25,374 nucleotides of DNA, from positions 1 to 25,374 of IMG/VR virus record IMGVR_UViG_3300047408_000278; one strand, given 5' to 3'. This DNA is from a virus. The position numbers were made by a program, and so were the translations under genes. Positions 20,510 through 24,514 of the stretch are shown here, piece by piece (the stretch's first letter is position 1; every line of letters begins with the position of its first letter). The notes beneath the pieces are model-generated. The model saw nothing but the letters and a program-made list of their open reading frames with translations. It was not told the origin of the DNA and ran no database searches.

Positions 20510-20536
20510 CGCCATTTTTACTGTCATTGCAAATTT
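20508..20536 (+). promoter_or_regulatory. Possible degraded copy of the promoter-like element
   Basis: TTCGCCATT is identical to the start of the copy at 24417. AC stands at the ACA position, and TCATTG then CAAA occupy the place of TCATTG then TAAT; about 19 of 28 bases agree with that copy. The TATAAT box is lost (TGCAAA), so it is probably inactive. Confidence 0.35.
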
Positions 20537-20697
20537 TTTTGGGCTCTATAGTTCGTTCTGAGCGCTTGAAAGGGGCAGGGAAGTATATTTATCCCAGATA
20601 GGGGGTCGAGCCGCTTAGAACGGATTCTAGAGGCCTTCTCGCGATTTTGGCTATATTTGGGGTGAAAAAACCCCCGGGGAAGGTTTCCAGAAATGAT
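20537..20697 (+). other. Non-coding segment with inverted repeats
   Basis: I find no credible gene here. An 11-base inverted repeat with one G-T pair (20554-20564 with 20612-20622) encloses a GGGA/TCCC hairpin. Further on, GGGGT (20659-20663) can pair with ACCCC (20670-20674) around an A-rich loop. The segment separates the terminator at 20472 from the RNA-unit array; it may hold another structured RNA or a binding site, but no matching promoter copy is intact in front of it. Confidence 0.4.
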
Positions 20698-20726
20698 TTC
20701 GCAGGAAAAACAGTGTCTATAATGAG
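20698..20726 (+). promoter_or_regulatory. Conserved promoter-like element, copy 2
   Basis: TTCGC at 20698, ACA at 20710 and TATAAT at 20718, followed by GAG: spacing identical to the other copies. It precedes a 100-nt structured segment ending in a T-tract and no gene. Confidence 0.8.
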
Positions 20727-20823
20727 AAGAGACTAGGATTGGAGGACTAGTCTATGAACCGGACCCCGTGAGGATTCTTCGAGAATCCAAAATACGCAAG
20801 AACGACGGACCTTCTCATTTTTT
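20724..20823 (+). ncRNA. Candidate structured RNA, unit A
   Basis: Directly after TATAAT, GAGAAG (20724-20729) pairs with CTTCTC (20811-20816), which is followed by A and six T. With the last two promoter bases the match is 8 of 8. Inside are two perfect hairpins: AGACTAG/CTAGTCT (20730-20736 with 20747-20753), whose 10-base loop holds GGAGG, and GGATTCT/AGAATCC (20772-20778 with 20782-20788). There is no reading frame of note. It would give an RNA of about 100 nt if transcription starts at the G after TATAAT. I do not recognise an RNA family, and the arms do not fit a tRNA. Confidence 0.6.
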
Positions 20824-20850
20824 CGCAGAAAAAACAATTACTATAACGAG
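20822..20850 (+). promoter_or_regulatory. Conserved promoter-like element, copy 3
   Basis: TTCGC at 20822, ACA at 20834 and TATAAC at 20842 (one change from TATAAT), followed by GAG. It begins inside the T-tract of unit A, so the units are packed head to tail. Confidence 0.75.
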
Positions 20851-20897
20851 AGGGGAGGGTTAGCGACCAACTATACCTCCTCTCTCACCAGTTTTTT
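20848..20897 (+). ncRNA. Candidate structured RNA, unit B (single long hairpin)
   Basis: GAGAGGGGAGG (20848-20858) pairs with CCTCCTCTCTC (20876-20886) over 11 bases with one G-T pair, around a 17-base loop. It is followed by ACCAG and six T (20892-20897). This is essentially a promoter followed at once by a terminator-like hairpin, predicting an RNA of about 50 nt. No gene could fit. Confidence 0.58.
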
Positions 20898-20926
20898 CTC
20901 ACCGAAAAAACAAACACTATAATGAG
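20898..20926 (+). promoter_or_regulatory. Conserved promoter-like element, copy 4
   Basis: CTCAC stands at the TTCGC position (20898), ACA is at 20910 and TATAAT at 20918, followed by GAG. It has the weakest 5' block of the seven, but spacing, A-tract, ACA and TATAAT are kept. It starts within the T-tract of unit B. Confidence 0.72.
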
Positions 20927-20988
20927 GAGACGCGAATCCAGCGTGTGGCATTCAGCCAACTCAGAGAAATCTGAGCTTCTCATTTTTT
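20924..20988 (+). ncRNA. Candidate structured RNA, unit C (four-way junction)
   Basis: The segment folds on paper with almost no unpaired joints. The closing helix GAGGAG/CTTCTC (20924-20929 with 20976-20981) holds three arms: ACGC/GCGT (20930-20933 with 20941-20944), TGGC/GCCA (20946-20949 with 20955-20958) and CTCAGA/TCTGAG (20960-20965 with 20970-20975, GAAA tetraloop). Only single bases (G20945, A20959) separate the arms. A and six T follow (20983-20988). The next gene starts at 21016 with its own ribosome site, so the unit could also act as an attenuating leader. The cloverleaf outline recalls a tRNA, but arm sizes and sequence do not fit one. Confidence 0.65.
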
Positions 20989-21015: not shown

Positions 21016-21240
21016 ATGTCCACTATTCAAGAGCAGCGTGGAGGAATGGGAATCGGTACGTCCTTTGCTTGCGAGCTAGGCGTCGCCGTTCTCAGAGGTG
21101 CTCGAGCAATGGATGTCGCCCATACAGATCTTCTCGCAGCTGTCACTGCCGAGGAAGCAGCTGAAGCTGCCGAGCGCCTCGAGTTGATCATCCGCAATAC
21201 CATCATCGCGATTCGTCTGTACGACACAGCTAACATCTAA
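21016..21240 (+). CDS. Small helical protein of unknown function
   Basis: This 74-residue protein starts at an ATG behind ACAGGAGAG. The N-terminus (MSTIQEQRGGMGIGTSFACE) leads into an Ala/Glu-rich helical region: AVTAEEAAEAAERLELIIRN, ending IIAIRLYDTANI. There is no membrane segment or signal peptide. It follows RNA unit C by 27 bases, so it is either expressed by read-through of that unit or regulated by it. It is followed after 20 bases by the membrane protein gene at 21261, with AAAGGAG in between. I do not recognise the family. Confidence 0.68.
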   Translation: MSTIQEQRGGMGIGTSFACELGVAVLRGARAMDVAHTDLLAAVTAEEAAEAAERLELIIRNTIIAIRLYDTANI

Positions 21241-21260: not shown

Positions 21261-21788
21261 ATGGAATACACACAATTGCCCCCGCCCGCTCCTATTGTCG
21301 AGAACTCTAAGCCTAAGAAAAGCCTTCCGGTCAAGATCGCTATCGGGATTGCTATTTTCTTTGGTATCAGCTGGGTTGCTAGTCTGATCACGAACATTAG
21401 CAACGCAACAGCTTCTCATTCAGCTCCAATCCCTGCAGCCACGTCACATTCGAATGTTAGCAATGAGAAGGCTGAGACTGTCGTTTGGGCGGTCACTGCT
21501 GGTCCTGCAATGCAGAAGATCGTCGACATCAGCACGGGCATCGATGAGAATTCCGATCCGTCGGTGATTCTGTCAGCTTGCCTCAAGCTCGGCGATGCAG
21601 GTCATGATCTGGCTGATGGTGCTCCTGCTACTGCCGCTGGTGATGAGGCTCGAGCAATTGAGTCGTCATTTTCCAAGGCAGCCACTGCTTGCAGTGATGG
21701 TGACTTTGAGACGGCATCTACATATCTGCATGATGCAGTTGGTCACATGAGCACTCTCACGGACGAGCTCTCGAAGATCGCTGGTTAA
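21261..21788 (+). CDS. Membrane-anchored extracytoplasmic protein
   Basis: This 175-residue protein has a Pro-rich cytoplasmic start (YTQLPPPAPIVENSKPKKS), one membrane segment (VKIAIGIAIFFGISWVASLI, about residues 24-43), a Ser/Ala/His-rich linker, and an outside helical domain of ~100 residues with two Cys: SACLKLGDAGHDLADGAPAT and AATACSDGDFETASTYLHDA. This layout is common for actinobacterial cell-surface lipoprotein-like or signalling proteins. In a phage it could alter the host envelope, for example by blocking superinfection, but that is a guess. AAAAGGAGATAATC precedes the ATG. A terminator follows the stop. Confidence 0.75.
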   Translation: MEYTQLPPPAPIVENSKPKKSLPVKIAIGIAIFFGISWVASLITNISNATASHSAPIPAATSHSNVSNEKAETVVWAVTAGPAMQKIVDISTGIDENSDPSVILSACLKLGDAGHDLADGAPATAAGDEARAIESSFSKAATACSDGDFETASTYLHDAVGHMSTLTDELSKIAG

Positions 21789-21879: not shown

Positions 21880-21905
21880 AACCTAACTTTATGAAAGGAA
21901 GAATA

Positions 21906-22079
21906 ATGAAAGTGAGTGACAAAGGCATAATTGTGTGTCAAGAGACCGGGGAATTTCATTGGAGTTTGAAGCAGTGTGCTAAGCATTATGGCTTCAGTCC
22001 AAGAGCACTTGCCCGTCGTCTTAATGGACATGGCAGTCGTCGCAGTACTCACGGATTTTCATTCCGTAGAATGAAGTAA
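21906..22079 (+). CDS. NUMOD1-like small DNA-binding protein
   Basis: This 57-residue protein reads VSDKGIIVCQETGEFHWSLK, then QCAKHYGFSPRALARRLNGH, then HGFSFRRMK. The 'V.C.ETGE...S...AA...G.S...L.R.L.G......G..FR' layout matches the NUMOD1 / IENR1 helix-turn-helix module usually appended to homing nucleases; here it stands alone without a nuclease domain. A regulatory or DNA-targeting role is plausible. I chose the ATG at 21906, which lies 5 bases after AAAGGAAG; the in-frame ATG at 21891 would sit too close to the promoter. A terminator follows closely. Confidence 0.68.
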   Translation: MKVSDKGIIVCQETGEFHWSLKQCAKHYGFSPRALARRLNGHGSRRSTHGFSFRRMK

Positions 22080-22120: not shown

Positions 22121-22149
22121 TTCGCCAAAATAACAAGTACTATAATGGA
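22121..22149 (+). promoter_or_regulatory. Conserved promoter-like element, copy 6
   Basis: TTCGC at 22121, ACA at 22133 and TATAAT at 22141, followed by GGA. The spacing equals that of all other copies. It precedes structured unit D. Confidence 0.8.
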
Positions 22150-22250
22150 GAATTACCGAGCGGGTGTGGGAATCGATTGAAAACTCACATAACCGAATGG
22201 ATCTGGTGACAGAAGCCCTGACACACGGTGTCGGGCTTATTCTCTTTTTT
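22147..22250 (+). ncRNA. Candidate structured RNA, unit D
   Basis: GGAGAAT (22147-22153) pairs with ATTCTCT (22239-22245; one wobble) just before six T. Inside are a TGTGGG/CTCACA arm (22165-22170 with 22184-22189) and a strong AGCCC-bulge-GACAC/GTGTC-GGGCT hairpin (22214-22237). The first ~30 bases (GGAGAATTACCGAGCGG) look like the start of a serine tRNA, but there is no T-arm, no foldable anticodon stem and no CCA, so a working tRNA is rejected; a tRNA-derived origin is possible. The unit ends 27 bases before the gene at 22277 and may act as its leader. Confidence 0.55.
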
Positions 22251-22276: not shown

Positions 22277-22708
22277 ATGGGTGAAAGAATTGATCGTTGG
22301 AAGAAATATGTTGCAGATAATGAAGTTAATAAAAAAGTAAAGAGTCATTTTGAAACACATAAAGAGCTATATCTTCGTGTTGCTGGTGGAGTCGCAATCG
22401 CAGGAATTACAGCTATTGTAATGAGAGATCGTCACGCCAATCTTCTTAAAGGATTGGATGGGCCCACAGGGGCTACCGTGCGTTCTCTTAACTTTTTTTC
22501 TAAAGGTGGAGATATTGTAACTACTGTTCATAATGGTGGAAGAGGACATCCCGGATTTAGAGTTCATAATTTCGAACACAATTTGGATTTTGATACGCAA
22601 GGAATAGCAGCAAGAACATTCAGCATCCCGGAAAATGTAATGTCAATGCATCTCAACAAGAAAATTCCTGATGCATATGGATTACATTTCGATCGAATCA
22701 TATCATAA
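22277..22708 (+). CDS. Membrane-associated protein of unknown function
   Basis: This 143-residue protein has a charged N-terminal helix (GERIDRWKKYVADNEVNKKV), one weak membrane segment (LRVAGGVAIAGITAIVM, about residues 33-49), then a soluble part with GPTGATVRSLNFFSKGGDIV and TVHNGGRGHPGFRVHNFEHN, rich in Asn, Gly and His. AAAGGAGATAATT precedes the ATG. It is the first gene of a run of small membrane-protein genes and follows RNA unit D. I do not recognise the family. Confidence 0.68.
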   Translation: MGERIDRWKKYVADNEVNKKVKSHFETHKELYLRVAGGVAIAGITAIVMRDRHANLLKGLDGPTGATVRSLNFFSKGGDIVTTVHNGGRGHPGFRVHNFEHNLDFDTQGIAARTFSIPENVMSMHLNKKIPDAYGLHFDRIIS

Positions 22709-24416: not shown

Positions 24417-24445
24417 TTCGCCATTAAAACAATCATTGTAATGGA
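24417..24445 (+). promoter_or_regulatory. Conserved promoter-like element, copy 7
   Basis: TTCGC at 24417, ACA at 24429 and TGTAAT at 24437 (one change), followed by GGA. The spacing is again identical. It lies right after the stop of the secreted enzyme gene and precedes structured unit E. Confidence 0.78.
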
Positions 24446-24514
24446 GGAGAGTGAGCTCGAGTTTTATTGACTCGATGAAAGGTGGAATCCCAAGAACTCT
24501 CCTCCATTTTTTTT
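24443..24514 (+). ncRNA. Candidate structured RNA, unit E
   Basis: GGAGGAGAGT (24443-24452) pairs perfectly with ACTCTCCTCC (24496-24505); with the last two promoter bases the match is 12 of 12. It is followed by A and eight T (24507-24514). An inner arm TCGAGT/ACTCGA (24457-24462 with 24470-24475) has a 7-base loop. The outer helix has the strongest terminator-like character of the five units. The gene at 24531 begins 16 bases after the T-tract. Confidence 0.65.

Follow-up and report, generated by a model that had tools for sequence, protein, structure and literature searches.

A compact RNA of about 60 nt, here called unit C, is predicted on the plus strand of the window (the whole 25,374-base IMG/VR virus record analysed here), and folding together with comparison among relatives showed it to be, as judged from the DNA, a selected RNA with promoter and terminator signals, arranged as a four-way junction in which nearly all bases are paired and no free ends are left. 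The reading we favour, with a probability of roughly 0.45, is that unit C forms a small RNA gene of its own whose product would act in trans as a stable decoy or inhibitor, presenting two constant loops to a host partner. The window comes from an actinobacterial phage and carries its head, terminase and tail genes, the terminase being 81-83% identical to those of Streptomyces and Gordonia phages. Behind these begins a run of small genes, many of which have a promoter to themselves, and unit C stands at the start of this run. The elements of unit C and the ORF behind it are listed below.

20902 to 20923, + strand: promoter element CCGAAAAAACAAACACTATAAT, placed by pattern matches, weight matrix, and the conserved TATAAT and upstream ACA
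20924 to 20929, + strand: 5' strand of the closing helix, GAGGAG, pairing with 20976-20981 (paired in 100% of cells in the five members)
20930 to 20944, + strand: arm 1, a 4-bp stem (20930-20933 / 20941-20944) with the 7-nt loop GAAUCCA (GAANCCA in the family)
20945, + strand: single joint G, from RNA folding
20946 to 20958, + strand: arm 2, a 4-bp stem (20946-20949 / 20955-20958) with the 5-nt loop AUUCA (ANUCA in the family)
20959, + strand: single joint A, from RNA folding
20960 to 20975, + strand: arm 3, a 6-bp stem (20960-20965 / 20970-20975) capped by GAAA, from folding and alignment
20976 to 20988, + strand: intrinsic terminator, made of the closing helix 3' strand CUUCUC (20976-20981), an A, and the T-tract (20983-20988)
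21016 to 21240, + strand: 74-aa ORF (MSTIQ...) directly after unit C, with RBS

Fold and conservation of unit C

The first-pass annotation had claimed a closing helix, three arms and a GAAA cap with single joints at 20945 and 20959, and refolding returned this four-way junction base for base. The energy of positions 20924 to 20988 was -24.4 kcal/mol in comparison to a mean of -14.2 kcal/mol for shuffled controls (z = -3.9), with 1 of 200 shuffles folding as well, in agreement with the claim that such packing is unlikely by chance. With two extra 5' bases (20922 to 20988) the z value was -4.1 and none of the 200 shuffles was as good; the opposite strand of a 51-nt part of unit C gave no special fold (z = -0.6).

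Relatives of unit C were gathered through the neighbouring DUF6353 gene and by DNA pattern, and the unit was found in four related viral contigs (L194:5172, L195:5519, L196:5768 and L342:10988). In the alignment of five members (the window and the four contigs, all from related phages), 99% of the paired cells across the four helices are still paired, and both sides have changed in 7 of the 20 pairs. The covariation score was 0.42 in comparison to 0.25 after shuffling, with 0 of 500 shuffles as high, and it was at most 0.145 when the pairing partners were slid. One pair of the closing helix has changed on both sides, and G-U changes are also seen within it; a stem pair of arm 1 varies between CG, UA and AU while the loop stays conserved; arm 2 has two compensatory pairs; and arm 3 has three, with a GNRA cap in four of the five members. 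All three arms and the closing helix are kept in the four contigs, so the architecture first claimed holds among relatives as well, and each of the five members, folded singly, yields the same cross. The DUF6353 neighbour protein of the relatives shares only 55-63% identity with that of the window, which indicates that the phages bearing unit C are not near-identical.

A covariance model run over about 2.4 Mb of loci placed only the five members above noise, with weak matches sharing the closing helix alone, and unit C is present as a single copy per phage record. No match was found in 296 actinobacterial genomes; three DNA patterns in viral contigs and one in genome contigs, used to find wider homologues, gave matches that on reading were due to chance, without promoter and T-tract; and in a distant blastn of one member against cultured phages the promoter part alone matched. 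Many other relatives are without unit C and have a different RNA unit in their gene array instead.

The GAANCCA and ANUCA loops and the GC pairs adjoining them are almost invariant among the five members, while the fourth base of loop 1 and the second base of loop 2 vary freely. Since the stems are free to vary and the two loops are nearly constant, unit C most likely acts in trans via its loops. The seeds of kissing RNAs typically combine constant loops with stems that vary, and the two loops might base-pair with a target mRNA, making unit C an antisense small RNA. We consider this very unlikely, because no loop complement longer than 8-9 nt was found in the windows or loci of the five phages, and the two freely varying loop positions also argue against it.

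Promoter, start site and terminator

The conserved promoter element claimed upstream of unit C was recovered as a recurring motif, the pattern AAAAACA-N4-CTATAATGAG having six matches in the window (at most 3 mismatches) in comparison to 0.13 expected, and the T-tract was found as well. The consensus is approximately CARAAAAAACAnnnnCTATAATGAGA, the copy of unit C scores 33.3 with a weight matrix built from 65 sites, TATAAT and the upstream ACA are conserved among the aligned members, and the promoter is present in 107 stretches of viral contigs.

The closing helix begins exactly at the first base after TATAAT. A -10 TATAAT of the sigma70 type would start transcription at about 20930 and exclude the closing strand, whereas the helix implies a start about 6 nt upstream. 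The unit could therefore be a terminator or insulator only, in which the RNA from its own promoter starts at about 20930, lacks the closing strand and reads on, transcripts arriving from upstream form the complete helix and terminate, and the arms are filler. The position of TATAAT (20918-20923) agrees with such a start, and leaving out the closing strand weakens the fold (z = -2.3). Filler, however, would not need conserved arms and loops with compensatory changes; in other units, closing helices of up to 28 bp begin at that same base; and a +7 start would cost the tRNA-shaped units part of their acceptor strand, which starts at about +4 or +5. On these grounds an insulator seems quite unlikely, and the pairing pattern and the G-U changes in the closing helix say that the closing strand belongs to the RNA. 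A search of 16 related records for a T7-type RNA polymerase gave no match, although it detected the T7 control. This leaves two possibilities, initiation immediately behind TATAAT by some other polymerase or factor, or processing of longer transcripts.

Sister units and the wider class

The census of the class covered the window and 80 related loci (81 loci), in which 285 distinct promoter copies are followed by an ORF and 74 have none behind them. In 58 of the 74 ORF-less units a helix runs from the base after TATAAT to the T-tract, while the shuffles gave 12.35 such units on average and never more than 20, and the helix match drops when the downstream halves are swapped between units. Unit C shows the shared promoter, the absence of an ORF and the helix from the base after TATAAT to the T-tract; on these comparisons it is a member of a large class of interchangeable, putative phage RNA genes that has so far gone unannotated. 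No description of these self-terminating units was found in the open-licence literature searched. The other units of the window, for which no homologues were detected, are as follows.

20702 to 20823, + strand: unit A, promoter, structured RNA of about 94 nt with an 8-bp closing helix, T-tract (z = -2.0)
20826 to 20897, + strand: unit B, promoter, 39-nt hairpin RNA with an 11-bp closing helix, T-tract (z = -4.9)
22125 to 22250, + strand: unit D, promoter, multi-arm RNA of about 99 nt closed by GAGAAU/AUUCUC, T-tract (z = -3.1)
24425 to 24514, + strand: unit E, weaker promoter copy, RNA with a 13-bp closing helix, T-tract (z = -3.3)

A further promoter copy, together with a closed structured RNA and its T-tract, was seen at 22398-22495, nested in frame in the small membrane-protein ORF 22277-22708, with counterparts at L193:5535-5630, L192:5535-5640 and L194:5325-5430; the nested RNAs of the window and L193 share a fold though both inner hairpins differ in sequence. 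At 20515-20700, after the phrog_5818 gene and its terminator, lies a conserved non-coding element that about ten relatives share. Its inverted repeats include GTTCTAAGC..CTCAGAAC and CCTCT..AGAGG, and it has the core CCCCGGGG; it gave no consensus RNA fold and may be a DNA site, for instance an end, an origin or a place of recombination. The small ORF 21891-22079 has a weak NUMOD-like (homing endonuclease DNA-binding) match with E = 2.7e-4, under the Pfam cut-off.

Diverse RNA types fill the same arrays, among them tRNA, tRNA-shaped RNAs and tandem identical hairpins. A tRNA-Ala is found inside such arrays in ReqiPepy6 (L190:3900-4005) and ReqiPoco6 (L204:3190-3285), annotated as 'tRNA-OTHER' with anticodon AGC and lying between a class promoter and a T-tract, its acceptor stem extended by the flank pairing GGAAAG/CTTTCC. 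In Gordonia phages, a tRNA-shaped RNA (L393:2679-2758, L398:2881-2960 and L420:2718-2800) has a UA linker, a D-arm, the T-arm GGUUCGAUCC and an extended acceptor, with GCAA or ACAA capping the anticodon stem, and is thus a tRNA without an anticodon loop. This RNA with its four-base anticodon-stem loop has whole or partial blastn matches in 36 Gordonia phage records, and among the matches listed no annotated feature lies under it. An RNA family of about 110 nt (29 sequences), found in arrays including those of Gordonia and Rhodococcus phages, occurs at sites such as L191:5733, L355:4749, L396:588, L418:2299, L105:3847, L135:1959, L410:4497 and L372:4500; it carries the motif GACACGAAUG, one of its hairpins is a canonical tRNA T-arm in some members, and the GGG of its 3' hairpin UUUUCGAUGGG could pair with the ACCC behind. 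The loci holding this family gave no gathering-level Rfam match except a separate tRNA. In the tandem-hairpin units (L346:4719, L379:4443 and 4554, L344:3909 and 4198, L351:3597, L385:5864, L408:4078 and L403:7715), two or three near-identical hairpin copies lie within a closing helix, and the hairpin differs per phage; these units look like multivalent sponges or antitoxin mimics.

It had been suggested from the outline of unit C that it might be a tRNA mimic without tRNA sequence. The absence of tRNA sequence was borne out, as unit C has no ARAGORN or Rfam tRNA match (nor a match to any Rfam family), but the mimic found no support. Like tRNAs and tRNA-like structures, unit C has a closing stem and three arms with the third stacked directly on the closing stem, and the tRNA shape of sister units also speaks for mimicry. 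However, GAANCCA, ANUCA and GNRA stand in place of the D, anticodon and T loops, the linkers are 0/1/1/0, and the T-loop UUCRANY on a 5-bp stem, the D-loop GG, the U8A9 linker, the 7-nt anticodon loop and the 3' CCA are all lacking, while the tRNA-Ala of ReqiPepy6, within the same class, is positive in the tRNA test. We thus regard a tRNA mimic proper as extremely improbable for unit C; the idea was nevertheless close, other units in the same arrays being true tRNA or tRNA-shaped.

Mode of action and meaning

A cis-acting leader is the main rival to a trans role, because an ORF without any other visible promoter and with an RBS comes shortly after the T-tract. Unit C would then control the promoterless ORFs 21016-21240 and 21261-21788, whether by attenuation, as a leader that binds a ligand, or in the manner of a put RNA. 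No promoter was seen between unit C and the 74-aa ORF, the terminator lies directly before RBS and ATG in five of the five members, and many sister units also lie just before an ORF. The ORF behind unit C, however, differs among the five phages (the 74-aa ORF, two IKxHK-type membrane proteins, a WLIW-type protein and another ORF), so that the conserved downstream gene looked for in a riboswitch or cis leader was not found and a gene-specific leader is unlikely; the ligand-binding leader put forward in the first-pass annotation is unlikely as well, unit C preceding unrelated genes in different phages. In addition, sister units follow one another in tandem, every one having a promoter and a terminator to itself, and a tRNA gene is among them; no competing fold was seen among the best structures. 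The put sites of HK022 are two stem-loops in a leader which let polymerase read through terminators; they resemble unit C as structured RNA soon after a promoter (an early promoter for put), but unit C ends in its own terminator. Overall a cis role appears unlikely, and a trans-acting set fits better than gene-specific leaders, given how varied the units are and that they are placed in tandem and exchangeably.

Cluster A mycobacteriophages (L5, D29 and StarStuff) have abundant small non-coding RNAs of unknown function, reported to be stable (PMC5712189). Unit C is like them an ORF-less, non-coding actinophage element with a strong promoter, but the cluster A RNAs come from a genome-end region of about 500 bp with no evident stem-loop terminator (PMC5712189), whereas unit C is about 60 nt long, self-terminating and a conserved cross. 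In phage PhiTE, a host toxin is blocked by pseudo-ToxI, an RNA of the phage that mimics the antitoxin, which is a precedent for mechanism only (PMC3475682). The ToxI mimics are repeated, as are the tandem identical hairpins of some sister units, but they are repeated pseudoknots (PMC3475682), in contrast to unit C, a single four-way junction with no repeat. As a single cruciform, unit C likewise lacks the tandem pseudoknot repeats of type III toxin-antitoxin RNAs, and a search for the ToxN family in 24 records gave no match, nor did its control. Bacterial Y RNA (YrlA) was tried and rejected, with no Rfam match and no TROVE protein in 24 related records in a search that detected its control, and defence-gene neighbours, also considered, gave no support.

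Of the functions suggested in the first-pass annotation, the decoy for a host factor is the one that we prefer. In this reading as a trans-acting decoy or inhibitor, the phage promoter would start an RNA of about 60 nt at or just before G20924, and the six bases at its 5' end would pair with the six that close the helix ahead of the T-tract, a single helix thus sealing the 5' end and serving as terminator. The loops GAANCCA and ANUCA would be presented in trans to a partner, in all probability a nuclease or RNA-binding protein of the host, which unit C may titrate or inhibit in a counter-host role, as one item in an interchangeable RNA set carried by these phages. The tandem identical hairpins in these arrays would suit titration. 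It is possible, though doubtful, that these actinophages carry a swappable library of small self-terminating RNAs serving as decoys for factors of host defence or control, including the tRNA-shaped RNAs without anticodon loop, the tandem hairpins and unit C.

Phage annotation covers proteins and tRNAs, and a search for other small RNAs is rare; here one promoter motif and a closing helix reveal dozens of unannotated, predicted actinophage RNA genes. Several units occur in cultured Gordonia and Rhodococcus phages, so that their function is directly testable. The RNA-decoy library, if true, would be to RNA what the anti-defence islands of other phages are to protein, and if the units are decoys, their variety would indicate host RNA-binding factors important in infection.
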